Source: Gammaproteobacteria bacterium (GTDB taxonomy: Bacteria > Pseudomonadota > Gammaproteobacteria > Ga0077536). From it: a stretch of DNA of 64,000 bases. The position numbers and the translations under genes were made by a program. Below the pieces are notes generated by a model. The model had not been told where the DNA came from, ran no database searches, and was given only the letters and a program-made list of their open reading frames with translations. Shown here piece by piece: positions 40,492 through 61,096 of this stretch (position 1 is the first letter of the stretch; every line of letters begins with the position of its first letter). The stretch lies in the NCBI GenBank assembly GCA_020849475.1, contig JADLGE010000047.1:16102-80101 (forward strand), written 5' to 3'.

Positions 40492-40515
40492 GCCTTTGAA
40501 CGTGAGCGTGTGACC

Positions 40516-41940
40516 ATGACTGGGCCAGCATCCGAGCGCGCCGTGCTGCTGCTGGTCGACGACGACGAACTGATCGTCGATGCCCTTGGCCTGGTGCTGA
40601 GCGACGACTTCGACATCGTCAGCGCCGGCAGTCGTAGCGAAGCGCGCGCCCTGCTGCGCAAGCTCGATGCCCCGCCGCCATTGGCGCTGGTCGACCTGGG
40701 GCTGCCGCCCGAACCCCACGGTCCAGGCGAGGGCTTCGCGCTGCTGGGTGAGCTGTTCGCCTTCAACCCCGCCATGAAAGTGCTGGTGCTGTCCGGTCAG
40801 GACGAGCGGCGCAACATCCAGCACGCCCTGACCCTCGGCGCGGTGGATTTCGTGCCCAAGCCCTGTGAACCGGCGCTGCTGCGCGCGCGCCTGAAGCACC
40901 AGCTGCTGCTGCTCGACGCCGAGCGTCGCCCCCATGCGCCCGCGGCGGGCGCCGGTGAGCTCTTGCTGGGCGCGAGCGCCGGCATGGCGACCCTGCGCGC
41001 GCTCATCGAGCAATTCGCCGACACGCCGTTTCCGGTGTTGGTCGAAGGCGAGTCGGGCAGCGGCAAGGAACTGGTGGCGCAGGCGTTGCACGCCGCCAGC
41101 GCGCGCAAGCACGGTCCGATGCTGACCATGAACTGTGCGGCCTTCAGTCCGGATCTGCTCGAAGCGCAGCTGTTCGGCCATGCGCGCGGCGCCTATACCG
41201 GCGCCGACAAGGCCCGCGCCGGCTTTTTCGAAGAGGCCAGCGACGGCACCCTGTTCCTCGACGAAGTGGGCGAGATGCCCCTCGATCTGCAGGCCAAATT
41301 CCTGCGCGTGCTGGAGAACGGCGAGTACTACCGACTGGGTGAAACCGAGGCGCGGCGCTCGAATGCGCGCATCGTCGCCGCCACCAACCGTGAACTGCGC
41401 GAACTGGCCCGTGCCGGGCGCTTTCGCCAGGATCTTTTCCATCGCCTGAGCGTGCTGACGGTCAGCGTGCCGCCGCTGCGCAGCCGTGGCGACGACTGGC
41501 GGCTGCTGCTCGACGCCTTCCAGCGTCAATACGCGGCCAGCATCAAACCCTTCACCCTGGCGCCGGCCGCTGCCGAACTGCTGGCCGGCTACGCTTTTCC
41601 CGGCAACGTGCGCGAACTGCGCAATATCGTCATCCGCCTCGGCGCACGCTATCCCGGGCAGTGCGTGAGCGCCGCGCAACTGCGCCCTGAACTCGAGCTC
41701 GACGTCGACGCCGCGCAGCTGTCGCCGGCAGTCGACAGCGCCACGCCGGAACAACGGCTGCGCCAGCCCGGCTTTCGCCTCGACGACGAACTGGCGGCGC
41801 TGGAACGGCAGTACATCGAAGCGGCGCTGCGCTTGGGCGAGGGCAACCTCAGCAAGGCGGCGCGCCTGCTGGGCGTCAATCGCACCACGCTCCACAGCCG
41901 CCTCGCGCGTCTGACGCCGCCAGCGGCGACGGACGACTAG
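40516..41940 (+). CDS. sigma-54-dependent response regulator (PrsR-like)
   Basis: 474 aa; ATG at 40516 preferred, with GTG at 40510 possible. Receiver (about 8-125) with phospho-Asp in ALVDLGLPPEPHG, a pattern typical of PrsR-type regulators. AAA+ domain (about 145-380): Walker A VEGESGSGKELVAQAL, sigma-54 contact loop GAYTGA (usual form GAFTGA) and Walker B GTLFLDEVGEMP. A Fis-type helix-turn-helix closes the protein (NLSKAARLLGVNRTTLHSRL). It activates sigma-54 RNA polymerase when phosphorylated. It heads the MSHA-like block and is probably driven by the PrsK-like kinase at 54819-56615. A strong -24/-12 promoter at 58354 is a likely target. Confidence 0.92.
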   Translation: MTGPASERAVLLLVDDDELIVDALGLVLSDDFDIVSAGSRSEARALLRKLDAPPPLALVDLGLPPEPHGPGEGFALLGELFAFNPAMKVLVLSGQDERRNIQHALTLGAVDFVPKPCEPALLRARLKHQLLLLDAERRPHAPAAGAGELLLGASAGMATLRALIEQFADTPFPVLVEGESGSGKELVAQALHAASARKHGPMLTMNCAAFSPDLLEAQLFGHARGAYTGADKARAGFFEEASDGTLFLDEVGEMPLDLQAKFLRVLENGEYYRLGETEARRSNARIVAATNRELRELARAGRFRQDLFHRLSVLTVSVPPLRSRGDDWRLLLDAFQRQYAASIKPFTLAPAAAELLAGYAFPGNVRELRNIVIRLGARYPGQCVSAAQLRPELELDVDAAQLSPAVDSATPEQRLRQPGFRLDDELAALERQYIEAALRLGEGNLSKAARLLGVNRTTLHSRLARLTPPAATDD

Positions 41941-43200: not shown

Positions 43201-43239
43201 AAATGGGGGATCCCGAGACGCGAGCCGAGGCCCGAGCAC

Positions 43240-44934
43240 ATGAAATTCAAAGCGATAGTCGTGACGCTGCTGGCCCTGTGGCTGGCCGCTTGCGCCGAGA
43301 TCCGACCGCATCCTCCGGCCGCGCCGCCATCCGGCCATCTCAACAATCCGCCCGTGGCGCCGGCCAGCAATATTCCCGAAGTCGTCGGCCAGGTGCCGTT
43401 CGTGCCGGCGCCCGCCGTCACCCCTGCGCCGGAGCGTTACACGGTGGTGGTCAACGACGTGCCGGTCCGCGAACTGCTGTTCGCGCTGGCCCGCGATGCC
43501 AAGCTCAATATCGATATCGGTGGCGCGATCAGCGGCAATGTCACGCTCAACGCCATCGATCAGACCTTGCCGCAGATCCTCGAGCGCGTCGCGCGCCAGG
43601 TGTCGCTGCGCTACGAAGTCACGCAGGACACCATCGTCATCTCGCCCGACGAGGCCTATCTGCGCACCTACGAAGTTGGTTACGTCAATCTCTCGCGCGA
43701 CGTCGACACCACGGTCAATGTCGCGACGCGCGTCGCCACCACCGGTGACAGCGCGGTCGAAGGCGGCAGCGGTGGCAGCGGCCGCAGCAGCGGTGGTGGC
43801 AGTGGCGAGAACAATTCCTCATCCACGCGTCTCGAGACCCGTTCCTACAATCGCTTCTGGGACACCCTGCGCTCCAACATCCTGTCGATACTCGGCGAAG
43901 CCAATGTCACCACCGGCGACACCAATGCCTCGGACAAAGTGATCGTCAACGCCGAGAGCGGCCTCATCAGCGTGCGTGCCACCAGTCGTCAGCACAAGAT
44001 CATCGAAGAATTCGTGCAGCGTGTGCTGGTCAACGCGCGTCGCCAGGTGATGATTGAAGCGACCATCGTCGAAGTGTCCTTGAGCGATCAGTATCAAGCC
44101 GGCGTCGACTGGAATCTGCTGCTGAACCAGTCGAATGCCGCGGGCTTCACGGTCGATCAGTCGGTGCTCGGCAAGATTGCCGACGGCGCCATCGACAACG
44201 CCATTTCTTCTTTTACGCTCGGCTACAAAAATCCCTTGCTCGGCGACAACTCGGTGACCGCGACCGTGCGCCTGCTGCATGAATTCGGCGATACGCGCGT
44301 GCTGTCGAGCCCGCGGCTCATGGTTCTGAACAATCAGACCGCGGTGCTGAAAGTAGTGGAGGAGCTGGTCTACTTCACCTTGAACGTGACCGACAAGGAT
44401 TCCACCACCACCTCGCAGGGCCGCACCCTGGTTGAAACCGATGTGCATTCGGTGCCGGTGGGGCTGGTGATGGCGGTCACGCCGCAGGTCTCGGCCAACA
44501 GCGAAGTGACCTTGACCGTGCGTCCGACCATTTCGCAGAAGATAGGTGACGCGGTCGATCCGGGCCCGGTCTTGATCACCGAACTGCGCGGCTCTTCGAG
44601 TGACGTCACCAATCTCGTGCCCGTCATTCGTGTGCGCGAAATGGAATCGGTGTTGAAACTCGTCGATGGCCAGATAGGCGTGCTCGGCGGTCTCATGCAG
44701 GACGACATGCGCGGTGGCAACCGTGACGTGCCGGGGCTGTCACGCATTCCGGTGTTGGGGCATATGTTCTTCCGCACCGAGGAAACCAATAAGCGCAAGA
44801 CCGAACTGGTGGTGTTCCTGCGGCCGGTGGTGGTGCGCGACCCAAGCATCAACACCGACCTCAAGGATTACGCCGGCCTGTTGGGCAGCAGCGCGGCGCC
44901 CGCTGCCGCCGTGCCCGCCAACCCGGCGCCGTGA
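43240..44934 (+). CDS. mshL: MSHA-type pilus secretin MshL
   Basis: 564 aa from the ATG at 43240 (GAGG upstream). A lipoprotein signal peptide ends at the lipobox LAAC. A Pro-rich linker, an STN-like/secretin N-terminal region (about 65-160) and a Gly/Ser-rich loop (GGSGGSGRSSGGGSG) precede the secretin core. The core shows RRQVMIEATIVEVSL, RVLSSPRLMVLNNQTA and the C-terminal signature VPVGLVMAVTPQVS. It forms the outer-membrane ring through which the pilus passes. It follows an AT-rich promoter-like patch and starts the assembly operon. Confidence 0.92.
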   Translation: MKFKAIVVTLLALWLAACAEIRPHPPAAPPSGHLNNPPVAPASNIPEVVGQVPFVPAPAVTPAPERYTVVVNDVPVRELLFALARDAKLNIDIGGAISGNVTLNAIDQTLPQILERVARQVSLRYEVTQDTIVISPDEAYLRTYEVGYVNLSRDVDTTVNVATRVATTGDSAVEGGSGGSGRSSGGGSGENNSSSTRLETRSYNRFWDTLRSNILSILGEANVTTGDTNASDKVIVNAESGLISVRATSRQHKIIEEFVQRVLVNARRQVMIEATIVEVSLSDQYQAGVDWNLLLNQSNAAGFTVDQSVLGKIADGAIDNAISSFTLGYKNPLLGDNSVTATVRLLHEFGDTRVLSSPRLMVLNNQTAVLKVVEELVYFTLNVTDKDSTTTSQGRTLVETDVHSVPVGLVMAVTPQVSANSEVTLTVRPTISQKIGDAVDPGPVLITELRGSSSDVTNLVPVIRVREMESVLKLVDGQIGVLGGLMQDDMRGGNRDVPGLSRIPVLGHMFFRTEETNKRKTELVVFLRPVVVRDPSINTDLKDYAGLLGSSAAPAAAVPANPAP

Positions 44935-45018
44935 GGCGATGGCGATGTCGCGCACCGCGCCCAAGGCGTTGCCGTCATTGACTGACGGTCGCCGCTTGAA
45001 CGTGCGCGAGGCCTTGCC

Positions 45019-46662
45019 ATGAGCCTGTTGATGGACGCCTTGCGGCGTGCCGAGGCCGATAAGAAGGCGCAGGAAGAACGCGCCGCGCGCGCCGCCGGCG
45101 AGGATGTGCCGGGCGACGCCGGCATCGTCACGCGCATATCGCCCTACAGCAAATCCCAGGACGACACCGTGCAGATTGACGGTCGCGCCCTGCAGGCGGC
45201 GGCCGCCACCATGGCCGACTTCGATCTGCGCATCGACGACAACCTCGACCGCAGTCTGTCCATGACGGCGCCCGAGAGTCTGAGTCTGGAGCCGCTGGCC
45301 GACGCGGCCGGCAACGACACCGATTTCCTGCCCATGGACAGCGCCCCGGATGAAGACTTCGATGCGGCGGAATTCGGCGGCAATCTGACCTTCAAAGGGC
45401 GCACCGAGCGCCGCGAGCAGACCGGCACCCTGCCCAATGCGCGCGGCATGTCCAGCGACCTCGATGATTATTTCGATCGCTCCCAGACCCTGGCCGCGCC
45501 GAAAGCCGCCGCGCGCGGTGAAGACGGCACACTCGAAGATGTCTCCGCGCACACCGTGGCCGGCGCGCAAACGGTTTTCCGCGCCGCCGAACGCACGCCG
45601 CGCGGGCGGCTGCTGACCTGGGTGGCGGCGCTGGCGGTGTGCGTCGTGCTGGGCATCGCCGGTCTCGGCGTCTACTACGCCGGCCTGAGTCCCGCGCCGC
45701 ATGTGGTGCCATCGCCGGAAGTGGCGCGCGATGTCGAGCGGCCGCGTGATGAAGTGCGCACGCTCGCGCCGCTGCCAACGTCTGCGCCCGCCGCCGATGT
45801 CGCGCTGGCGCGCATCGATACCCAGCCGCCGCCGCAAGAGACCCGCGCTACACCGGCGTCGGCGGATGCAGTGCCGGTCGCGCTCGAAACGTCTCCTGCC
45901 GCGCCCGCCGCGGCGACAAGCGCAGCGGCGCCGAACGTCGCCGTGAAGGCCGCGCGACCGCGCCAACCCGTGCGGCCGAGGCCTGCAGCAAGGGCTAAAG
46001 CGGCGCCGGATGCACACGCCAACAGTGAAGAAATCGCCAGCGGCGAAGTGCAGATCTCGCGCAGCCGGCGGCCCCATCCCATCGATGCCACCTTGAGTGA
46101 GGCCTATGCCGCGTTCCAGGCCGGCAATCTTGAGCTAGCGGCCAAGCTCTATAACAGCGCGCGTGTCATCGATCCCGCCCGCCGCGATACCTTGCTCGGC
46201 CTCGGCGCGGTGGCCTTGAAGCGTGGCGACCTGCCGCGCGCCTACGAATTTTACGCCGAGGTGCTGAAGCGCAACCCGGATGACCCGGTCGCGAGCGCCG
46301 CCATCTTCAACATGACCGAAGCCGAAGGCGAAGGCGGCGCCGCGCGTCTGCGTCTGCTGCTCGACGGCCACGCCGACGCCGCCTATCTGCATGCGGCGCT
46401 CGGCAACTGGTATGCGCGACGCCAACGCTGGCCGGATGCGCAGCAGGCCTATTTCGACGCCGCAAGGCTCGATGGCGCCAACCCCGATTACGTCTTCAAC
46501 CTCGCCGTGAGTCTCGACCACATGGGCCAGGGCAGTGCGGCGGCCACTTACTATGAAAAGAGTCTGGCCTTGCGCGCCCAGCGCAGCGCGGGCTTCAACG
46601 CACAAGCCGCACAGGCGCGCCTCAGCGCGCTGTCCGCGTCGGGCGCCGGCCACACGCCATGA
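45019..46662 (+). CDS. mshN: TPR protein of the MSHA locus (MshN-like)
   Basis: 547 aa. The N-terminus MSLLMDALRRAEADKKAQEE is the short helical motif found on MshN/GspB-type proteins. About 170 polar residues follow, one TM helix (about 197-217, WVAALAVCVVLGIAGLGVYY), a long Ala/Pro-rich periplasmic linker and a C-terminal TPR array (about 355-530, FQAGNLELAAKLYNSAR onward). Such proteins connect the inner-membrane assembly platform with the secretin. The position between mshL and mshE supports the name, though sequence conservation in the family is low. Confidence 0.82.
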   Translation: MSLLMDALRRAEADKKAQEERAARAAGEDVPGDAGIVTRISPYSKSQDDTVQIDGRALQAAAATMADFDLRIDDNLDRSLSMTAPESLSLEPLADAAGNDTDFLPMDSAPDEDFDAAEFGGNLTFKGRTERREQTGTLPNARGMSSDLDDYFDRSQTLAAPKAAARGEDGTLEDVSAHTVAGAQTVFRAAERTPRGRLLTWVAALAVCVVLGIAGLGVYYAGLSPAPHVVPSPEVARDVERPRDEVRTLAPLPTSAPAADVALARIDTQPPPQETRATPASADAVPVALETSPAAPAAATSAAAPNVAVKAARPRQPVRPRPAARAKAAPDAHANSEEIASGEVQISRSRRPHPIDATLSEAYAAFQAGNLELAAKLYNSARVIDPARRDTLLGLGAVALKRGDLPRAYEFYAEVLKRNPDDPVASAAIFNMTEAEGEGGAARLRLLLDGHADAAYLHAALGNWYARRQRWPDAQQAYFDAARLDGANPDYVFNLAVSLDHMGQGSAAATYYEKSLALRAQRSAGFNAQAAQARLSALSASGAGHTP

Positions 46663-48368
46663 ATTCGCCGAAACGGTCGCTGCGCATCGGCGAACTGCTG
46701 GTTCAGAAGGGCGTCGTCAGCTCCGATCAGATTCGCATCGCGCTCACCGAACAGCGCAAGAACCGTGATCACCTCGGGCGCATTCTGGTGCGCCTGGGCT
46801 TTGCCACCGAGGCCATCATCCTCGACGTGCTGGGCGGCGCCTTAGGCCAACAGAAAGCGCAGCTCTCGCAGGTGGTGGTCGATTCGGAAGCCATCCGCCT
46901 CATTCCCAAGGACATGGCGCGGCGCTTTCATATCCTGCCGCTGACCTTCGACGCCAACAGCAATCGCCTGACCGTGGCGATGGCCGACACCTTCAACGTG
47001 GTGGCGCTCGACCAGCTTGCCGCCCATCTCGGTGGCGCGGTCGAGATCGTGCCCTTGATGGCGGGCGAGGCGGAAATCGAAAAAGCCATCGACCAGTTCT
47101 ACGGTTTCGAACTGTCGGTCGACGGCATCCTGCGCGAAATAGAAACCGGTGAAATCGACTACGAGAGTCTCGATGCCGACAGCGCCGAGTACAGCCAACC
47201 GGTGGTGCGGCTGGTCAACGCCCTGCTGTCCGATGCGGTCAAGCGCGGCGCCTCGGACATCCACTTCGAACCGGAAGAGGGCTTCCTGCGTTTTCGCTAT
47301 CGCATCGATGGCGTGCTGCGCCAGATAAGGTCCTTGCACAAGAACTACTGGTCGGCGCTGGCGGTGCGTCTGAAAGTGATGTCCGGCATGGACATCGCCG
47401 AGACCCGCGCGCCCCAGGACGGTCGCATCACCTTGAGTCTGTCGGGGCGGCAGATTGATTTTCGTGTCTCGACTTTCCCGACCGTGCACGGCGAGAACAT
47501 CGTGCTGCGCGTGCTGGACCGCCAGAAAGGCATCGTGCCCATCGACGAGCTCGGTCTCGACGACGATGTGCTCATGACCTTGAAGCTCATGGTGGCGCGC
47601 CCCGAAGGCCTGTTGCTGGTGACCGGGCCTACTGGCAGCGGCAAGACCACCACGCTCTACAGTCTCCTGAACCACCTCAACACCGAGTCGGTCAACATCA
47701 TGACCTTGGAAGACCCGGTGGAATATCCGATGGGCATGATTCGACAGACGTCCATCAACGAAGTCGCGCGCCTCGACTTCGCGAGCGGCGTGCGCTCGAT
47801 CCTGCGTCAGGATCCGGACATCATTCTGGTCGGCGAAATTCGCGACGAAGACACCGCCTCGATGGCGTTTCGCGCCGCCATGACCGGCCACCAGGTGTTC
47901 TCGACCCTGCACACCAATTCATCGCTCGGTACCTTGCCACGCCTGCTCGACATGGGCATACGGCCCGAGATCCTGGCCGGCAACATCATCGGCATCATTG
48001 CTCAGCGTCTGATCCGCAAGCTGCGTCTCGATTGTCGTGAAGCCTATGAGCCGAGCGAACTCGAGCGGCGCATTCTCGGCCTCGATGCCGCGGCGCGCGG
48101 ACACACCATCTTCCGCGTCGCCGAGGAATTCGGTCATGCGCCGCATCAAGGCTACGAGGGACGCACCGCGCTGATTGAAGTGCTGCGCTTCGATCGCGAA
48201 ATCGACGAGCTCATCGCGCAGAACGCCAAGCTCAAGGAACTGACGGTGGCGGCGCGTCGGCGCGGTTTCCAGACCCTGGCGGACGTGGCCATCAAGCGCG
48301 TGCTGGAAGGCCTCACCTCGCTCGATGAAGTGTCGCGGGTGGTCGACCTGACCGAGAGACTCGGCTGA
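46659..48368 (+). CDS. mshE: MSHA pilus assembly ATPase MshE with c-di-GMP-binding domain
   Basis: 569 aa, ATGA overlap with mshN. The N-terminus reads RIGELLVQKGVVSSDQI through LTEQ, a 5-residue spacer, then a second related LGRILVRLGF motif; this is the tandem 24-residue MshEN pattern that binds cyclic-di-GMP in Vibrio MshE. The GspE-type core has Walker A GPTGSGKTTTLYSL, an Asp box with EDPVEYPM and Walker B ILVGEIRDEDTAS plus the His box TGHQVFSTLHTNS. The tetracysteine zinc motif of many GspE proteins is absent. It powers pilus extension from the cytoplasm and is probably responsive to c-di-GMP. Confidence 0.94.
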   Translation: MNSPKRSLRIGELLVQKGVVSSDQIRIALTEQRKNRDHLGRILVRLGFATEAIILDVLGGALGQQKAQLSQVVVDSEAIRLIPKDMARRFHILPLTFDANSNRLTVAMADTFNVVALDQLAAHLGGAVEIVPLMAGEAEIEKAIDQFYGFELSVDGILREIETGEIDYESLDADSAEYSQPVVRLVNALLSDAVKRGASDIHFEPEEGFLRFRYRIDGVLRQIRSLHKNYWSALAVRLKVMSGMDIAETRAPQDGRITLSLSGRQIDFRVSTFPTVHGENIVLRVLDRQKGIVPIDELGLDDDVLMTLKLMVARPEGLLLVTGPTGSGKTTTLYSLLNHLNTESVNIMTLEDPVEYPMGMIRQTSINEVARLDFASGVRSILRQDPDIILVGEIRDEDTASMAFRAAMTGHQVFSTLHTNSSLGTLPRLLDMGIRPEILAGNIIGIIAQRLIRKLRLDCREAYEPSELERRILGLDAAARGHTIFRVAEEFGHAPHQGYEGRTALIEVLRFDREIDELIAQNAKLKELTVAARRRGFQTLADVAIKRVLEGLTSLDEVSRVVDLTERLG

Positions 48369-49573
48369 TGGAAGCCTACCGCTACAAGGCCATCAACGCC
48401 CAGGGGCGGGTCTCACAAGGACGGGTCGATGCCGTCAACCCGGCCGATCTCGAAACGCGCCTCGCGCGCATGGGGCTCGATCTCGTCAACTACCGCGAAC
48501 TGCCATCGCGCAACCGCAATGTCACCGGGCGCGGCATCGAGCGTATCGATCTCATCACGTTCTGCTTTCATCTCGAGCAATTGGTGCGCGCCGGCGTGCC
48601 GATACTCGAGGGCCTGTCGGATCTGCGCGACACGGTCGACAACCGGCGTCTGCGAGAAGTCACGGCGGCGATGATCGAAGGTATTGAAGGCGGCAAGAAC
48701 CTGTCGCAGGCGATGGCGGATTTTCCGTTCGTGTTCTCGCCGGTGTTCGTCAGTCTCATCCGCGCTGGCGAGGAGAGCGGCCAGCTGACGCGGGTGCTGG
48801 CCAAGGTCATCGAGAATCTCAAATGGCAGGACGAGCAGGCCGCCTACACCAAGCAATTGCTGACTTATCCCGTCATCGTCACGGTGTTCATTTTCCTCGC
48901 GCTGTTCTTTCTCATGATGTTCGTGGTGCCGAAGCTGGTCAGCTTTCTCGCGACCATGGGTCAGACGCTGCCGCTGCAGACCCGCGCCCTCATCGCCACC
49001 TCGAAGTTCTTCACCCAGTACTGGTACCTGGTGCTGTTCCTGCCGCTGGCGACCACCGTGGGTGGCGTGCTTGCGTTCAAGACTCATCCGCGCTTTGCCG
49101 ACTGGTTCGACGAGCTGTGCTTGAATCTGCCGCTGGTCGGGCCGGTGTTGAAGAAGCTCATCGTCACGCGCGTGTGCAATGTCTTTTCGATCATGTATTC
49201 GTCGGGCATCACGGTGCTCGAATGTGTGCGCACCACCGAGAACGTGGCGGGCAATCGCGCGGTGGCGAATGCCATGCGCGAGGCCGGCCGCATGATCGCC
49301 GACGGTGGCGGCATCAGTCGCAGCTTCGCCGCCACCGGCCTGTTCCCGCCGTTGGTGATACGCATGTTGAGGGTCGGCGAAAACACCGGCGCGCTCGAGA
49401 ATGCGCTCGACAACGTCAGCTATTTCTACACGCGCGACGTTGCCGAATCGGTGCAACGCCTGCAGGCGATGATCATGCCGATAATCACCATCCTGCTCGG
49501 CGCGGTGCTGTTCTGGATAATCGCGGCGATCCTTGGGCCTCTCTATGATTCGTTCACTAAGATCAATTTTTAG
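48368..49573 (+). CDS. mshG: MSHA inner-membrane platform protein MshG (GspF/PilC family)
   Basis: 401 aa, start overlapping the mshE stop. Two GspF-type repeats (about 65-190 and 270-395; HLEQLVRAGVPILEGL, then NVFSIMYSSGITVLECV) and three TM helices (about 165-190, 215-235, 370-392) are visible. It anchors the ATPase at the inner membrane and turns with it during pilus assembly. The arrangement mshE-mshG is as in Vibrio and Shewanella MSHA operons. Confidence 0.94.
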   Translation: MEAYRYKAINAQGRVSQGRVDAVNPADLETRLARMGLDLVNYRELPSRNRNVTGRGIERIDLITFCFHLEQLVRAGVPILEGLSDLRDTVDNRRLREVTAAMIEGIEGGKNLSQAMADFPFVFSPVFVSLIRAGEESGQLTRVLAKVIENLKWQDEQAAYTKQLLTYPVIVTVFIFLALFFLMMFVVPKLVSFLATMGQTLPLQTRALIATSKFFTQYWYLVLFLPLATTVGGVLAFKTHPRFADWFDELCLNLPLVGPVLKKLIVTRVCNVFSIMYSSGITVLECVRTTENVAGNRAVANAMREAGRMIADGGGISRSFAATGLFPPLVIRMLRVGENTGALENALDNVSYFYTRDVAESVQRLQAMIMPIITILLGAVLFWIIAAILGPLYDSFTKINF

Positions 49574-54048: not shown

Positions 54049-54853
54049 ACCCAGTGCGCCCGCACGTCGCCAGCATGGCTTCACGCTGCTGGAAATGGCG
54101 ATAGTCGTGTTCATCGTCGGCATGCTGACGGCCGGGCTCATTGGACCAGTACAGGTGCAGCTCGAAGCGCGTGACCGGCGCAAGACGCTCGACGTCATGG
54201 CCCAGGCCAGCGAAGCCTTGTATGGCTACGCCTTGACGCATCGCCGCCTGCCGTGTCCCGACACCAACGGTGACGGCATGGCCGACCCGCAGTTCACGAT
54301 TGCCAGCGGCGGCGATTGCGACAACGAGAGCGGTTTCCTGCCGTGGGCCGAACTGGGTGTCGACGGTGGCGATGCGTGGGGCAATCACTTGACTTACCGC
54401 GTGCGTGAAAGGCAGTTCACGTTTCCGGCGCAGAACAGCACCTGCGACGGCAATAGCACGGATGAATTCGATCTCTGCTCGCAGGGCAATATCGACATCG
54501 AAACCCGCGGCGACGATGCCGGCACGGCCGGCGTCACCGAAGGCAAATTCAAGTTTCCGGCCGCCACCCCCGACAACGTCGCGGCGGTGCTGGTCTCCCA
54601 CGGCCGCAATGGCTACGGCGCGACAGGGCTCGACAACGTGCCGCGCGGCGCGGTGCCGACCGAGAATGGCGATGAAGAGGAAAACGCCGACGGCGATGCC
54701 GAGTTCGTGTCGCGTGCCTATTCCCAGGCCCAGGACGGTTGCGCCGATGACAGCAGCGAGGGCTCGCCGCTGTGCGAGTTCGACGACCTGGTGCTGCCGA
54801 TCTCGCGCTCGCTGCTGGTCAGCCGGATGGTGTCGGCGGGGCAGTTGCCTTGA
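54023..54853 (+). CDS. type IV prepilin-like protein
   Basis: 276 aa from the ATG at 54023 (54020 also possible), overlapping the previous stop. The leader QHG is followed by FTLLEMAIVVFIVGMLTAG, a textbook prepilin cleavage site with Glu at +5. The body shares RRLPCPDTNGDGMADPQF and a Cys-rich acidic C-terminus with the previous protein, pointing to a minor-pilin pair that works together. Its last 35 nt overlap the convergent kinase gene at 54819. Confidence 0.82.
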   Translation: MKSCPSCPEPSAPARRQHGFTLLEMAIVVFIVGMLTAGLIGPVQVQLEARDRRKTLDVMAQASEALYGYALTHRRLPCPDTNGDGMADPQFTIASGGDCDNESGFLPWAELGVDGGDAWGNHLTYRVRERQFTFPAQNSTCDGNSTDEFDLCSQGNIDIETRGDDAGTAGVTEGKFKFPAATPDNVAAVLVSHGRNGYGATGLDNVPRGAVPTENGDEEENADGDAEFVSRAYSQAQDGCADDSSEGSPLCEFDDLVLPISRSLLVSRMVSAGQLP

Positions 54854-56615
54854 GGAAGGTTGCGCTGGCGCAGCTCAATTCGAAACTCACACGCCCGTCG
54901 ACATTCTCGGCCAGACGCAACTGACAGCCATGGCGACGCGCCAGCTCGGCGGCTTGATAGAGGCCGATGCCGAGCCCGGTGCGCGACGCCACCGGGTGCT
55001 GGAATAACTGGCGCGCGGTGTGCTCCGCAATCGCCCGACCATCATCGCGCACGGTGAGCCGCAGCGCGCCGCCCAGCACCGCGAGGTCGAGCGCGATGTG
55101 TCGCGCTTCGCCGGCCGCAACCTTGTGCCGCGCGTTGTCGATGAGATTGTCGACAATGCTGTCCAGGCATTCGCCCGGCAGCGGCTGTTGGTCGTCGGCG
55201 ATGTTCGCAATCAATTCGATGTCGTCATCGGCCAGACGCTCACAGAGCTCGCGCCACCAGCGCGCGGCCGGCACCAGGACGATGGCGCCGAGCGCGGGAC
55301 GTTGCAGTTTTTCCAGCGCCACTTTCAAACGCTGGGCGATGTCCGGCAGACGCCGCTTCAAAAGTTCGAAGCCGCGCTGCTCCTGGTGGGTGTCGCTGGC
55401 GCTTTCCAGCGCCGCCGTCAGCGCGTTCAGGGATTGCAGCAAATTCTTGATGTCATGGGTGACGCGCGCGCCGGTCTCGTGCACTGCGCGCAGATGCGCG
55501 GCGCCGGCCTGCTCGCGTTCACGCCGCTTGGCGACATAGAAATGCCCCAGCACCTGCACCAGCAGGCGGCAATGAATGAGCAGCGCCGAACTCACGCTGC
55601 GTTCGGTATAGAGCGTGACCGACAGCGCGTCGGTGTCAAGCGCGAGTGCATGGGGTGAGGTGTGGCCATGCATGCCACGGCTGCCGCTGCTGACCCAGGC
55701 CGCGCCCGCCACCCACGGGATGTCGACCAGCGCCGCCACTGCGTCATCGAGAAAATCATCGGCCTCGGCCTGCTGGCTGGCGAGATTGGAGACATTCGCC
55801 AGCCACGACTCGAAACGGGTGCCGATGTTGAGCACCGATTTTTCCCACACCGCCAACAGCCCGATGCTGCCAGCGCCGGGCGTGGTGATCCACGACAGGA
55901 AGAACAGGAACACGCCGAGCGCCATCAGGGTCGCTATCAGCGCGAGTGGATATTCGATGTCGAGGCGCAGCGTCATGGCGACACTGAACACCGCCAGCAA
56001 GGCGGTCAACAGCGCGAAGGTGATGCCGCGAAAGAAGTCGACCGGAAACGGATCGCGCGGTGGCGCGATGATCGGCGGCATGGCATAGAGCACGGCTGGC
56101 GCGAGATAGAGCCCTATGCGAAAGCTCTGCGCGATGCCGCCCGGCAGCGGCTTGCCGAGAAACAACTGCGCCGTGCAGTTGATCAGCAGCTCGCTGACCA
56201 GCATCGCCAGCGACAGCATGTAGACATAGCGCTCGCGACGGGTCGAAAACGAGCGCCCGGCGACGATGCCGATCAACAGCACCAGCCATGCGAACACCGT
56301 CCACCAGTTGAGCCACAGCATGGCGGTGACCAGCACCAGGGTCACGGCCAGCGCCGGCAGGTCGACCCGCTGTTCGCGTTGCCATATCGGTTGCCACAGG
56401 AAGAACAGGCCGAGATGGGTGACCATGAGGGCGCTGGCGAGCTGGGTGTCGATGCCGCTGTCGAGCGCGGTATGCAACACCAGCAGCATGGAGGCCAGCA
56501 GCCAGTGTTCGTGACGTCGGTCGAGAAAGGCGTGACGACGCACGTCGCCAGCAGATTCAGCGTGGGCGTGTGGACTTTCCGACGTGACGGCGGCTTGCCG
56601 AGGCGGCTGGCTCAA
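54819..56615 (-). CDS. membrane sensor histidine kinase (PrsK-like)
   Basis: 598 aa from a TTG at 56615 preceded by GAGGGAGAG. The N-terminal 250 residues carry about seven TM helices (WLLASMLLVLHTAL onward). A GAF-like region follows (about 270-380) and then a NtrB/PrsK-style H-box, THDIKNLLQSLNAL, with DHp helices and a HATPase (VDNLIDNARHKV, GLGIGLYQAAEL). The H-box HDxKN is typical of kinases that drive sigma-54 activators, so the regulator at 40516 is the probable partner, although the two genes bracket the pilus block rather than lying together. The gene is convergent with the minor pilin. Confidence 0.87.
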   Translation of the reverse strand: MSQPPRQAAVTSESPHAHAESAGDVRRHAFLDRRHEHWLLASMLLVLHTALDSGIDTQLASALMVTHLGLFFLWQPIWQREQRVDLPALAVTLVLVTAMLWLNWWTVFAWLVLLIGIVAGRSFSTRRERYVYMLSLAMLVSELLINCTAQLFLGKPLPGGIAQSFRIGLYLAPAVLYAMPPIIAPPRDPFPVDFFRGITFALLTALLAVFSVAMTLRLDIEYPLALIATLMALGVFLFFLSWITTPGAGSIGLLAVWEKSVLNIGTRFESWLANVSNLASQQAEADDFLDDAVAALVDIPWVAGAAWVSSGSRGMHGHTSPHALALDTDALSVTLYTERSVSSALLIHCRLLVQVLGHFYVAKRREREQAGAAHLRAVHETGARVTHDIKNLLQSLNALTAALESASDTHQEQRGFELLKRRLPDIAQRLKVALEKLQRPALGAIVLVPAARWWRELCERLADDDIELIANIADDQQPLPGECLDSIVDNLIDNARHKVAAGEARHIALDLAVLGGALRLTVRDDGRAIAEHTARQLFQHPVASRTGLGIGLYQAAELARRHGCQLRLAENVDGRVSFELSCASATFLKATAPPTPSG

Positions 56616-56732: not shown

Positions 56733-57506
56733 ATGAGTTTCAAAGCGTCAGCCGTGGTGGCTCGTCAAACGCTGCTGGAAGCGGCGCGCACACGCCTGCC
56801 GTGGACCGCGCTGACGGTGATGGTGGGCGCCCTGCTGCTGGCCGAATGCGCGGCGGCTCTGGCGCTGACCGACAGCCAGTCCTATCGCATCGAGATCTAT
56901 GCCGCCTTCACGCGCCTCGCGCTGGTGGCGCTGACTACCTTGTTCGTCGCCCACAGCGTGATGCGTGAACTTGCCGACCGTGTCATCGACCTTAGCTTGT
57001 CGCGGCCGGTGTCGCGCAGTGCGTGGTTCATTGGTCGCCTGCTGGGCTTCAGCGTCGCGGTGGCGCTGCTGGGAATCGTGGCGGCGCTGCCGCTGGCGTT
57101 CACCAGCACGCCCTTGGCAGCGTTGGCGTGGGGAGTGTCACTGGCGGCGGAGCTCTGCATCGTCGCCGCCGCCAGTCTCAGCGCGGCGGTGGCCCTTACC
57201 CAGCTTAATGCGACGGTGCTCGCGGTCGGCGCGTTCTATGTCCTGGCGCGCATGATGGGCGCCATCGTCCTCATGAGCCATGGGCCGGCGGTCGATGCCG
57301 GGGCGACGTCCAGCATCGTCATCGCGCAGCTGGTCAACGCCCTCGCGCTGTTGTTGCCCGCCCTCGACGACTACACGCGCAGCGCGTGGCTGACCGCAGG
57401 CGGTGCCGGCTTCGCGGCGCTGCCCGCCATCGCCGTGCAGACCGTCATCTATGTGGCGCTGCTGGCGGCGGTCGGCCTGTTCGATTTCACGCGTCGCGAG
57501 ATCTGA
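56733..57506 (+). CDS. ABC-2 type transporter permease
   Basis: 257 aa with about six TM helices (TALTVMVGALLLAE, YAAFTRLALVALTTLFVAHS and four more) and the family's ELADRVIDLSLSRPVSRSAWF loop, as in ABC-2/YjhP-type permeases. The substrate is unknown. Its likely ATPase is not adjacent but 1.6 kb downstream at 59129, beyond a TPR-like gene and a pilin gene. A TATAGT -10-like sequence lies about 40 nt before the start. Confidence 0.82.
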   Translation: MSFKASAVVARQTLLEAARTRLPWTALTVMVGALLLAECAAALALTDSQSYRIEIYAAFTRLALVALTTLFVAHSVMRELADRVIDLSLSRPVSRSAWFIGRLLGFSVAVALLGIVAALPLAFTSTPLAALAWGVSLAAELCIVAAASLSAAVALTQLNATVLAVGAFYVLARMMGAIVLMSHGPAVDAGATSSIVIAQLVNALALLLPALDDYTRSAWLTAGGAGFAALPAIAVQTVIYVALLAAVGLFDFTRREI

Positions 57507-57509
57507 GTG

Positions 57510-58235
57510 ATGGCGACCAAGCGTGCAGCAAATCTGCCGTGGCGCGTGGTCGCGGTGCTCGTCATCGCGCTGGCCGCGCAGCTCATGTGGGCGCAGCAGC
57601 GTCGCGCCCCGCAGGTGACGATAGCGGCGCTGGCGCCGCCGCCGTCGGCCGCCGTGCTGCGCGTTGCGTCATTCAATGAGCCGGCGCTGGCCGCGCGTCT
57701 CATGATGCTGTGGCTGCAGGCCTATGACTACCAGCCGGGCGTGAGCCTGCCGTTCCGCAGCCTCGATTACGCCGTCATCGAGGCCTGGCTCGCGCGCATG
57801 CTGGAGCTCGACCCCGGCTTTCAATATCCGCTGCTGGCCGCCGCACGCCTCTATGGCGATGTCGACGATGCACCGCGCCAGCGCCGCATGCTGGCCTTTA
57901 TCGCCCAGAGTTTCAGCGCCGACCCGGCGCGGCGCTGGCCGTGGCTCGCCCATGGCGTGTATCTCGCCAAGCATCGCCTGCATGACCTGCCGCTGGCGCT
58001 GCGACTGGCCGAGACCCTGGCCACCGCCGACCCGGCCGCCGCCATCCCCGACTGGGCGCGCCAGATGCGCATCTTCGTGTTGGAAGACATGGGCGACATC
58101 GAAAGCGCCAAGGTCTTGCTCGGCGGCCTGCTCGCCAGCGGCAAGATAGCCGACAGTCACGAGCGCTATTTTTTGAGCGAGCGCCTGGCCGAACTCGAGC
58201 ATCGCGGCGCGCGCCAGGCGCCGCCAGCGAAGTGA
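57510..58235 (+). CDS. membrane-anchored helical-repeat protein of unknown function
   Basis: 241 aa; ATG at 57510 (GTG at 57507 is an alternative), 3 nt after the permease stop. One N-terminal TM helix (WRVVAVLVIALAAQLMWAQQ) leaves about 210 residues in the periplasm made of TPR-like helices (AWLARMLELDPGFQYPLLAA, LPLALRLAETLATADPAAA). No family was recognised. Tight spacing links it to the ABC permease; an accessory subunit for the transporter is the simplest guess. Confidence 0.65.
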   Translation: MATKRAANLPWRVVAVLVIALAAQLMWAQQRRAPQVTIAALAPPPSAAVLRVASFNEPALAARLMMLWLQAYDYQPGVSLPFRSLDYAVIEAWLARMLELDPGFQYPLLAAARLYGDVDDAPRQRRMLAFIAQSFSADPARRWPWLAHGVYLAKHRLHDLPLALRLAETLATADPAAAIPDWARQMRIFVLEDMGDIESAKVLLGGLLASGKIADSHERYFLSERLAELEHRGARQAPPAK

Positions 58236-58261
58236 CGCAATTGCCGCAGGCGGACGAGATT

Positions 58262-58279
58262 TCGACAGTGGGGTGTCGA
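58262..58279. promoter_or_regulatory. inverted repeat, putative activator (UAS) site
   Basis: TCGACA-N6-TGTCGA is a perfect 6-bp inverted repeat whose symmetry continues imperfectly outward. It lies about 75 nt upstream of the -24/-12 promoter before the pilin gene, the usual distance for a sigma-54 activator binding site. The PrsR-like regulator encoded at 40516 is the natural candidate. Confidence 0.55.
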
Positions 58280-58353
58280 GATATCGTCACATGTGGTCCA
58301 AGTGCGGCCTGCTGATCGACCGCTTTCACCTGTTATCAGTGTGTTAGCCGGGC

Positions 58354-58369
58354 TGGCACGGCCCGTGCT
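58354..58369 (+). promoter_or_regulatory. sigma-54 (-24/-12) promoter of the pilin gene
   Basis: TGGCACG-GCCC-GTGCT matches the consensus TGGCACG-N4-TTGCW at all but one base. The invariant GG (58355-58356) and GC (58367-58368) are exactly 10 nt apart. The start of transcription would fall near 58380, giving a ~27-nt leader that includes the AGGAG ribosome site of the pilin gene. Confidence 0.8.
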
Positions 58370-58406
58370 TGGATTCGGGCACGAGAATTCGCCCAGGAGC
58401 GAAGAC

Positions 58407-59117
58407 ATGCCCAATATCCGCCGCCAGCAGGGTTTCACCTTGGTCGAAATGGCCATCGTGCTGGTCATCATCGGTCTCTTGCTCGGGGGCATCCTCAAGG
58501 GCCAGGAACTCATCACCAGCGCCCGCGTGCGCAACATCGCCGACCAGAACAGCGGCGTGCAGGCGGCCTACTACGGCTTCATCGATCGCTACCGCCAGGT
58601 GCCGGGCGACTGGTCCAAAGACAGCGCGGTCAAATCGATTCCCGGCGTGACCCATGGCGGCGATTCGAGTGGCCGCCTGGACGGCGACCCGGCCTGGAAG
58701 GAAGGCCTCGCGCTGTGGGAGCAACTCTCCAAGTCGGGCTTCATCCAGGGCAATTACATCGGCGGCGATTCCGAGCCCAACCAGGACGACGTCAACCTCG
58801 CGCCGCGCAACGCCTTCAATGGCTTCCTCATGCTGTTCAGTTCCAGCGACTACTACGACCCGGCGAGTTCGCCGAGCGAGAAGCTCAACCTGGTACTGGG
58901 CGCCGGCATCCCGGTCAACGTGGTGGCCGAACTTGACCGCAAGATTGACGATGGCCTGCCGCAGAGCGGCGTGGTGCGTCAGTCGGTGACCACCGCATCC
59001 GGCAAGTTCGGGAAAGTTTCCAAATCGACCACCGACTGCGTCGATACCGGCAGCACGCCCCCGATCTGGGACATCGCCAAGAACGAACAGAACTGCAACG
59101 CCGTCTATCTCTACTAA
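58407..59117 (+). CDS. type IV prepilin, sigma-54-controlled
   Basis: 236 aa from the ATG at 58407, which has a strong AGGAG site. The leader MPNIRRQQG is cut before FTLVEMAIVLVIIGLLLGGI (Glu at +5). The body has AAYYGFIDRYRQVPGDW, common in MSHA-type and related pilins, and two C-terminal Cys (TTDCVD and EQNCNAVYLY) that can form the D-loop disulfide. This is the best candidate for the major structural pilin. A -24/-12 promoter and an upstream inverted repeat precede it. It sits between ABC-2 permease and ATPase genes rather than beside the msh assembly genes. Confidence 0.85.
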   Translation: MPNIRRQQGFTLVEMAIVLVIIGLLLGGILKGQELITSARVRNIADQNSGVQAAYYGFIDRYRQVPGDWSKDSAVKSIPGVTHGGDSSGRLDGDPAWKEGLALWEQLSKSGFIQGNYIGGDSEPNQDDVNLAPRNAFNGFLMLFSSSDYYDPASSPSEKLNLVLGAGIPVNVVAELDRKIDDGLPQSGVVRQSVTTASGKFGKVSKSTTDCVDTGSTPPIWDIAKNEQNCNAVYLY

Positions 59118-59128
59118 GCCTGCCTGAC

Positions 59129-59863
59129 ATGGCCGACACCGCCGCGCCGGCGCTGGCCTTTCGCGGCGTCGGCAAATCTTTCGGCACGCGTGTGGTGCTG
59201 GCCGACGTCGACCTTGAAGTAATGCCCGGTGAGGCCGTCGGTCTGGTCGGTGTGAACGGTGCCGGCAAGACCACTTTGCTGCGCGCCTTGCTCGACCTCT
59301 CACGCCCCGATACGGGCAGCATCGAAGTGTTCGGCACACCGTCAGGTGCCGCCGCTGCGCGCGCGCAGCTTGCCTACCTCGCCGAACGCTTCACGCCGCC
59401 GGGCTTTGCCACCGGGCTTGAATTGCTGCGCTATCTGCTGGCGCTGCACGAAGTGAAGTTGGACGTCGCTGCCGCCGAGGCGCAGGCGCGCGCACTCGAT
59501 CTCGATCCCGCCGCGCTCCTGCGCCCGGCGCGTCACTATTCCAAGGGCATGGCGCAGAAGCTCGGGCTCCTGGCCTGCGTGCTCGCACGCCGTCCGCTGC
59601 TGGTGCTGGATGAACCGATGAGCGGTCTCGACCCGCGCGCCCGCGCCCATTTCAAACGTTGCCTGGCTGATCAGAAAGCCGCCGGCGTGACCTTATTCTT
59701 CAGCACCCACCTTCTGGCCGACGTCGAGGCGCTGTGTGACCGCATCGCGGTGCTGGAAGGCGGGCGCCTGGTTTACGTCGGCACGCCGGCCGCGCTGCTC
59801 ATGGCCCGTGGCGCGTCTACACTGGAAGAAGCTTTCCTGTCCTTGGTCGACGCGGCCGCGTAA
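59129..59863 (+). CDS. ABC transporter ATP-binding protein
   Basis: 244 aa. Walker A is GLVGVNGAGKTTLLRAL, the signature HYSKGMAQKLGLL (variant of LSGGQ, common in ABC-2 systems), Walker B PLLVLDEPMSGLDP and the switch His in FFSTHLLADVEAL. It should energise the permease encoded at 56733. It starts 11 nt after the pilin stop, so it is likely transcribed at least partly from the sigma-54 promoter. Confidence 0.88.
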   Translation: MADTAAPALAFRGVGKSFGTRVVLADVDLEVMPGEAVGLVGVNGAGKTTLLRALLDLSRPDTGSIEVFGTPSGAAAARAQLAYLAERFTPPGFATGLELLRYLLALHEVKLDVAAAEAQARALDLDPAALLRPARHYSKGMAQKLGLLACVLARRPLLVLDEPMSGLDPRARAHFKRCLADQKAAGVTLFFSTHLLADVEALCDRIAVLEGGRLVYVGTPAALLMARGASTLEEAFLSLVDAAA

Positions 59864-59935
59864 AGCCGGCCGCCGCGCCGGCCGCTAAGAAAGCTACGGT
59901 GCGCTGCGCCGCGACCCACGCTTACAGGACGCTCC

Positions 59936-60730
59936 ATGGTAGACATCCACCCCGAACACGCCCGCTCGGTCCTCGAATCCCTCGCTATCGGCGTGGTGCT
60001 GATCGACAAGAACCAGCATGTTAACTGGGTGAATGAATACACCTCGACGCTCTTGAAACGCCCGGCCGAGGACCTCCTGGGCCGCGCCATCGCCGATCTC
60101 GACCTGCCCTACGCGCCGCCCGAGGCCAGCGGCGAGCCGATGGAAGTGCGCATCGACGGCGCCATGCTCGGCATCACGCAACGCTATGAACATGCCGGCG
60201 GTGCTGGCGCGGTGCTGCTGTTGCTCGACCGCGGCCATGCCTTGGTGTGGTTCCTGAGCACGCTGGCCGGCGGTGTACCGGGCGCGGTGGCGTCCAGCGG
60301 TGTACTGGCGCGTGCCGCCATCCAGCATCGACTCGACAGCGAGATCTCGCGCAGCCGCCGTTACCAGAATGAACTGACCTGCATTTCCGTGCGCTGCCCG
60401 GGGGCGGAGGGGGCCACCGGCGTGGCGCGTCTTTTGAAAGAACAGCTGCGCTGGGTCGACCTGCTCGGCCAGTGGAGCGACGACACCTTGCTGGTGGTGC
60501 TGCCCGAGACCGCGCTCGACGCCGCGGAGGGTCTGCGCGACAAACTCGCCGCGCTGCTGGCGGCGCCCGGTCTCGGCGCCATTGACTGCGGCGTCACCGC
60601 CTGGCTCAAGGGCGACAACGCCGAACGCATGGTGGCACGTGCGATGGCCTCGGCGCCCGAGGGCTCAACCCGCCGGGAGGCTCAAGTCCACTATCTCGAA
60701 GTCGTGGGTGATGGCGACCGTCTGCCTTAG
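59936..60730 (+). CDS. PAS and degenerate GGDEF-like protein
   Basis: 264 aa. Residues about 8-110 read as a PAS fold (LESLAIGVVLIDKNQHVNWVNE). The C-terminal half (about 125-250) follows the GGDEF fold (RAAIQHRLDSEISRSRRYQN, LPETALDAAEGLRDKLAALL), but the catalytic loop is GQWSDDTLLV instead of GGDEF, so diguanylate cyclase activity is unlikely. It may bind GTP or c-di-GMP or act as a protein-interaction module. It lies just after the ABC ATPase and could regulate the pilus region. The 3' end overlaps the OsmC gene on the other strand. Confidence 0.78.
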   Translation: MVDIHPEHARSVLESLAIGVVLIDKNQHVNWVNEYTSTLLKRPAEDLLGRAIADLDLPYAPPEASGEPMEVRIDGAMLGITQRYEHAGGAGAVLLLLDRGHALVWFLSTLAGGVPGAVASSGVLARAAIQHRLDSEISRSRRYQNELTCISVRCPGAEGATGVARLLKEQLRWVDLLGQWSDDTLLVVLPETALDAAEGLRDKLAALLAAPGLGAIDCGVTAWLKGDNAERMVARAMASAPEGSTRREAQVHYLEVVGDGDRLP

Positions 60731-61096
60731 CATGATGGTGGCCGAGCAGTATTTCTCAGCCGACAGATTGACCGCCCGTTCGACCGCCGCCGCCTTGAGG
60801 CCGGCGCCGCTCACCTTGAAATGAATGTGGATGCGGGTGAAGACCTTCGGCACTTCGTCGGCGCGCTCGGCCTGTAACTCGACTTCGCAGCCGGCGATGG
60901 GCTGACGCCCTTTCTTCAGGATGTCGACCACATCGAAGGCTGTGCAGGAACCGAGTCCGGTCAGCAGCAACTCCATCGGTCGCGGCCCGAGATTGCGACC
61001 GCCCGCTTCCGGCGGTCCATCGACCACCACCGCATGACCACTGCCGGTGACGCCGACGAACATCGCACCGTCGACCCATTTGATTGTCGAATTCAT
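60665..61096 (-). CDS. OsmC/YhfA-family protein
   Basis: 143 aa from the ATG at 61096 (MNSTIKWVDGAMFVGVT, aligned with E. coli YhfA; the ORF-track start adds 11 residues). OsmC fold with the conserved Cys in LTGLGSCTAFDVVDILKKGR and the second in LSAEKYCSATIML. Family members reduce organic hydroperoxides, but YhfA itself is uncharacterised. In E. coli yhfA is next to and divergent from crp, the same arrangement as here. The ends of this gene and the PAS/GGDEF gene overlap by about 66 nt on opposite strands. Confidence 0.9.
   Translation of the reverse strand: MNSTIKWVDGAMFVGVTGSGHAVVVDGPPEAGGRNLGPRPMELLLTGLGSCTAFDVVDILKKGRQPIAGCEVELQAERADEVPKVFTRIHIHFKVSGAGLKAAAVERAVNLSAEKYCSATIMLRQTVAITHDFEIVDLSLPAG

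Follow-up and report, generated by a model that had tools for sequence, protein, structure and literature searches.

The pilus locus described here raises the question of how its pilin gene is switched on. The locus occupies positions 40510–60730 of a stretch of 64,000 nucleotides (the window), itself a segment of contig C47 in a draft genome of 5.4 Mb. The genome collection's nearest relatives of this genome are metagenome assemblies from Gammaproteobacteria, some under misleading record names; three records (L077, L087 and L117) are titled Klebsiella pneumoniae or Bordetella parapertussis, yet they are metagenome assemblies that, by their content here, belong with uncultured Gammaproteobacteria, and the names look wrong. 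We consider it probable (roughly 0.83) that the pilin is controlled by a dedicated, apparently single-target two-component sigma-54 circuit within the MSHA-like locus. What was read from the sequence comprises the promoter and its dyads, the extent to which these are conserved and unique, and the way the parts co-occur and are lost jointly.

The first part of the locus encodes a regulator, an ExeA-type ATPase, an MshL-like secretin, a TPR protein, an MshE-like ATPase, an MshG/GspF-like protein and assembly proteins, and in the rest, one or more additional prepilin-type genes and a divergently transcribed histidine kinase gene are followed by those for an ABC-2 permease, the pilin, an ABC ATPase and a PAS/GGDEF-like protein. 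The pilus machine itself (43237–49573, + strand), with the secretin, the TPR protein, the MshE-like ATPase and the MshG/GspF-like protein, was assigned by family profile matches. It shares with the Vibrio MSHA locus (MshL, MshE, MshG and MshA) an MshL-like secretin, an MshE-type ATPase with a c-di-GMP motif and a GspF/MshG-like platform protein. The N-terminal c-di-GMP-binding motif of the MshE-like ATPase (46659–48368; NF053729, 57.6 bits, cut-off 38) implies that the pilus motor may be c-di-GMP controlled. Unlike the Vibrio locus, the present one has a built-in kinase, a sigma-54 regulator and a split ABC transporter; its secretin scores just under the MshL cut-off (248.2 against 250.2), and its pilin resembles MshA at the N-terminus only.

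The pilin gene (58407–59117, + strand) encodes a type IV prepilin of 236 residues with a GFTLVE processing motif of the GF-xxxE type, matches to the N_methyl family PF07963 and to TIGR02532 (27.1 bits, cut-off 16.3), and a long helix at residues 12–62 of the AlphaFold model. The nearest solved folds to this model (mean pLDDT 88) are TcpA and CofA (probability 0.99 and 0.82), with TM-scores of only 0.34–0.49. TcpA and CofA are type IVb pilins and are major pilins. From its own strong promoter and ribosome-binding site, we infer that the product of 58407–59117 is plausibly the major pilin.

An ABC transporter ATPase gene (59129–59863, + strand) begins 11 nt behind the pilin gene, stays with it in most of the loci that offer enough sequence, and is probably part of the same transcript. 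The possible end of this transcript is a gene for a PAS and degenerate GGDEF-like protein (59936–60730, + strand; GGDEF below the Pfam cut-off), which is conserved in several relatives. Together with the ATPase, an ABC-2 type permease (56733–57506, + strand; PF12679 26.6, cut-off 27.2) and a conserved companion protein (57507–58235) surround the pilin, and permease, companion and ATPase stay linked to it in most relatives, even those without the operator and kinase described below. This pilin-linked split ABC transporter recalls PilGHI of Myxococcus, a set of proteins with a debated role (PMC6060248).

Upstream of the pilin gene, the -24/-12 element TGGCACGGCCCGTGCT (58354–58369, + strand) has the form TGGCACG-N4-GTGCT, with GG at 58355–58356, ten intervening bases and GC at 58367–58368. 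It lies 38–53 nt upstream of the ATG (58407), and the start of transcription is predicted at approximately 58380. Compared with the consensus TGGCAC-N5-TTGCW, the GG-N10-GC spacing is exact, and the only mismatch at a scored position is a G in place of the first T of TTGC. The pattern TGGCACGNNNNKTGCW has its sole zero-mismatch match in the window at this promoter. With two mismatches allowed, the window contains 27 matches against 35.6 in shuffled sequences, which makes such loose matches no commoner than chance and the -24/-12 motif alone weak evidence. An equally good -24/-12 score occurs in Markov sequence of the size of the intergenic region at P of approximately 0.002.

The genome as a whole contains five exact matches to the element, including the pilin promoter. 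The other four precede fleS/flrB-like, fliK-like and cheW-like genes, all three flagellar, and one polysaccharide gene, indicating that in this genome the sequence acts as a sigma-54 promoter. The sigma factor gene rpoN is present as a single intact copy (237.7 bits, open frame of 515 residues). A true PrsR gene (684 bits) on another contig (L267, C25:95000-110000) has an exact sigma-54 consensus approximately 4 kb upstream, before a polysaccharide-type gene. The sequence-only reading had proposed a near-consensus sigma-54 promoter with exact spacing, followed by a ribosome-binding site; the promoter is borne out by the sequence, by its conservation in orthologues and by the flagellar matches, and the ribosome-binding site AGGAG was found at 58395–58399 (+ strand), 7 nt before the ATG.

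The recurrent unit upstream of the orthologous promoters is a 16-bp dyad, TGTYGA-N4-TCRACA, which occurs twice in tandem. In the window, this conserved tandem consists of dyad 1, GGACGA-GATT-TCGACA (58252–58267, + strand), centred at about -120, and dyad 2, TGTCGA-GATA-TCGTCA (58274–58289, + strand), centred at about -98 and ending 64 nt before the -24 element; these distances are ordinary for sigma-54 enhancers. When the inner gap was left free, 4 nt was chosen in 38 of 40 orthologues, whereas the gap between dyads is variable (mostly 3–15, commonest 4). An activator site had previously been placed about 75 nt upstream of the promoter as one palindrome, TCGACA-N6-TGTCGA. Site and position hold, with TCGACA-GTGGGG-TGTCGA at 58262–58279 and 74 nt separating it from the -24 element. 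The parse was wrong: because the inner gap is nearly always 4 nt and the gap between dyads varies, the palindrome was rejected as the operator unit and represents the two inner half-sites of neighbouring dyads. It is unique in the window at zero mismatches, and with three exact and approximately 60 one-mismatch places in the genome it is not specific on its own. A tandem dyad as good as that of the window was found in none of 6000 Markov sequences of 171 bp. Dyads in orthologues usually start at about -100 and -80 relative to the -24 element, and their distances to the promoter cluster near 67, 80 and 91, which may hint at steps of about 11–12 bp (helical phasing) in what is a small sample of related genomes.

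Conservation was assessed in a pilin gene set from 40 of 96 related genomes, plus 80 loci of the genome collection. Nearly all close orthologues in the correct orientation keep the -24/-12 element 52–74 nt before the start codon. A -24/-12 score of at least 9 of 12 was reached by 40 of 66 orthologue upstream regions and by 7.6% of 19,469 random control windows from the same loci. A tandem-dyad score of at least 19 was reached by 37 of those 40 promoters and by 11 of 6,501 control windows (0.17%); since these very orthologues served to derive the dyad scoring, the comparison with the controls counts and not the raw score. One alternative is that G+C-rich DNA produced both the -24/-12 match and the palindrome by chance, the pilin being read from an ordinary sigma-70 promoter. 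It could draw on the chance-level frequency of loose -24/-12 matches in the window and on the element core, GCACGG-C-CCGTGC, which is itself a short palindrome. However, position and sequence of the promoter are conserved across many orthologues and genera, AT-rich loci included, and this explanation is very improbable. A simple scan of 57900–60900 found no sigma-70-type site. On the strength of these comparisons, the -24/-12 element and the upstream sites are confirmed as real and widely conserved, and their reading as a sigma-54 on-switch of the pilin gene is supported, as far as sequence can tell.

In a scan of the genome-collection loci and the window, the full signature was confined to the pilin promoter, the exceptions being a few antisense pairings of those dyads. 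A profile of the entire element, based on sequence alone and built from 24 orthologues, was searched over the 96 whole genomes, many of which are fragmentary assemblies. It gave 11 matches below 1e-5, each in a different genome and every one at a pilin promoter, seven of them in genomes outside the training set (G007, G008, G011, G017, G026, G043 and G046). The genome studied here has one good match (7.8e-10), the next being partial and at 0.017. Within the sensitivity of this profile search, the circuit looks single-target in each genome. In G046, two pilin copies (L261:2266-2967 and L261:4006-4716) flank the ABC ATPase, and the profile found an operator at only one of them.

The proposed activator of the pilin promoter is the response regulator encoded at 40510–41940 (+ strand), a candidate on the basis of Pfam and NCBIfam matches, co-occurrence, synteny and a conserved recognition helix. 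Its receiver domain (PF00072), Sigma54_activat AAA+ domain (PF00158) and Fis-type helix–turn–helix (PF02954, HTH_8) all score over cut-off, and with a GAYTGA loop they place it in the NtrC family. Of the 29 genomes that carry the pilin and have a readable upstream region, 16 had both operator and regulator and nine had neither, with three having the operator only and one the regulator only (P = 2e-4, an optimistic value, since kinship among the genomes means that they do not count as independent). No regulator was found in the operator-bearing G026, G029 and G063, whose contigs end nearby or whose assemblies are incomplete; G003 has regulator and kinase, but its -12 element has decayed and it retains a single dyad. 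Regulator, kinase and operator are all absent from G005, G024, G031 and G035, and G005 and G031 additionally lack the ATPase and ABC genes, with the pilin gene directly behind the preceding prepilin gene. Loci L250 and L251 have no regulator, ATPase, kinase or ABC genes and no sigma-54 promoter, and the pilin gene lies directly behind the preceding prepilin gene.

Orthologues of the regulator adjoin the pilus ATPase gene and, where it is on the stretch, follow metF (G007, G009, G017, G028, G033 and G046). In a gene tree built with the paralogues of this genome, they cluster apart from these (100/99 support). Nearly all of them, including those without a receiver domain, retain the recognition helix LGV/INRTTLY, which is unlike that of PrsR (LGVSRPTVYHLV). 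The proposal that the promoter is linked to a sigma-54 regulator 18 kb away, measured here at approximately 17 kb, is thus supported by the co-occurrence of regulator, kinase and operator.

Alternatively, the promoter could be sigma-54 dependent and its activator another NtrC-family protein, such as the PrsR encoded on C25, a PilR-like or an NtrC-like protein, in which case the linkage to 40510 would be incidental. The genome encodes approximately 14 proteins of the sigma-54 activator type, one of them a PrsR that clears its cut-off by a wide margin (684 bits), and only some of the 13 or so NtrC-family proteins other than the regulator were excluded individually as activator. The PrsR box, a 17-nt motif, sometimes repeated, followed by a spacer of 62.8 nt on average and a sigma-54 element before PEP-CTERM genes (PMC1569441), has the same layout of repeated dyad, spacer of approximately 63 nt and sigma-54 element as the pilin promoter, in which the spacer is 64 nt. 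The best NCBIfam matches of the regulator and the kinase are TIGR02915 (PrsR) and TIGR02916 (PrsK). Both proteins fall short of these families: the regulator scores 336 bits against a cut-off of 502.6, and the kinase scores 38.3 bits against 300, over residues 368–569 only (the kinase core). The PrsR motif ends in TTTACA and stands before PEP-CTERM genes, whereas the dyads described here end in TCRACA and stand before a pilin gene; the recognition helices also differ, and the true PrsR is encoded elsewhere in the genome. Moreover, the operator is present or absent in step with the regulator and kinase, and the presence of PrsR does not track the operator. The true PrsR was rejected as the pilin activator, being absent from the operator-bearing G007, G008, G011 and G046 and present in the operator-less G024, G031 and G035. 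Control by another NtrC-family protein is, on balance, unlikely.

NifA was also considered and rejected. The NifA upstream activator sequence has the consensus TGT-N10-ACA, to which a dyad TGTCGA-N4-TCGACA formally conforms. However, the additional CGA/TCG bases are conserved here, and the regulator has a receiver domain; NifA carries a GAF domain. No protein of the genome scores over the NifA cut-off, the regulator reaching 258.7 of 528.85 bits.

The proposed sensor of the regulator is the membrane histidine kinase encoded at 54819–56615 (- strand), which the sequence-only reading had not named as the likely sensor. It has about five hydrophobic segments, H387 in an HDIKN motif and a HATPase_c domain. 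Among 53 loci, operator and kinase were both present in 33 and both absent in 14, with two having the operator only and four the kinase only (Fisher P = 1.2e-7, again optimistic owing to kinship). The four kinase-bearing loci with no recognisable operator (L088, L109, L131 and L141) are only partly explained; in L088, the -12 element has decayed and a single dyad remains. The two operator-only loci, L085 and L087, correspond to G034 and G013, whose regulators lack the receiver domain and align only from residue 143 or 150, as does that of G019. In G021, which belongs to another genus, the kinase is absent and the regulator begins at the AAA+ domain, the copy being broken further on. Thus, where the kinase is gone and the promoter is kept, the regulator has no receiver domain. 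The gene tree places G021 apart from G013, G034 and G019, making two joint losses of kinase and receiver likely, although this position of G021 rests on a short fragment. Regulator orthologues in L252, L254, L255 and L219 lack the receiver, in genomes that lack the kinase as well, and are possibly signal-independent activators.

This joint loss is the strongest pointer to the kinase and the regulator as partners. The regulator could instead activate the promoter with a different partner, the kinase controlling something else in the locus; the two genes lie approximately 13 kb apart on opposite strands and cognate pairs are usually adjacent, as are the PrsK and PrsR genes in 12 of 13 pairs (PMC1569441). 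Nevertheless, G013, G034, G019 and G021 lack both the kinase and the receiver domain, and the kinase co-occurs with the operator across the 53 loci, so that a different partner seems rather unlikely.

Under the preferred two-component circuit, binding, phosphotransfer, transcription and the signal are what we infer. The kinase at 54819–56615 would phosphorylate the receiver domain of the regulator at 40510–41940, and the active regulator would bind the tandem dyads TGTYGA-N4-TCRACA as two dimers, at about -120 and -98 from the start of transcription. By analogy with established sigma-54 activation, the bound regulator would oligomerise and loop over approximately 64 bp to the RpoN polymerase, and ATP hydrolysis, involving the GAYTGA loop, would open the polymerase complex at the -24/-12 promoter. 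Transcription would then cover the pilin gene and, probably, the two genes downstream of it, for the ABC ATPase and the GGDEF-like protein.

In function, the proposed circuit resembles PilS-PilR, in which the -24/-12 promoter of a type IV pilin gene is activated from sites upstream by an NtrC-family regulator working with a membrane kinase, and in which PilS senses pilin in the membrane (PMC6058289). The kinase described here might, as a guess from this analogy, monitor the pilin pool. The two systems differ in arrangement and in DNA recognition: the kinase and regulator genes are not adjacent here and lie within an MSHA-like locus, and the operator is the tandem TGTYGA-N4-TCRACA, whereas the PilR elements are TGT-N11-AGA and GTCT (PMC6058289). 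The PilR regulon of P. aeruginosa also comprises many genes, in contrast to the one visible target here. Another NtrC-family regulator of the genome, on C75 and preceded by a kinase, may be its own PilS-PilR system. By sequence criteria, the circuit is like PilS-PilR in function and like the PrsR box in promoter layout, and it is neither PrsR nor PrsK by curated cut-offs, nor NifA. In open-access papers, we found no MSHA-type pilin with a sigma-54 kinase–regulator pair and no description of a TGTCGA operator.

These comparisons lead us to favour, with some reserve, the broader view that uncultured Gammaproteobacteria contain an undescribed family of pilin-specific two-component sigma-54 circuits, which has the tandem TGTYGA-N4-TCRACA as an operator of its own and one target in each genome. 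Kinase and receiver would have been lost together at least once, in the lineage of the three g4 genomes, and likely a second time in G021, leaving an activator no longer dependent on phosphorylation at a promoter that was kept. Such receiver-less regulators would represent a natural experiment in which signal control is lost while the promoter remains. The analysis gives a hitherto uncharacterised family of regulators a putative DNA motif and, despite the distance between the genes, a predicted kinase partner, and it offers a complete, testable chain from sensor through regulator, operator and promoter to pilin for an MSHA-like pilus in uncultured bacteria.
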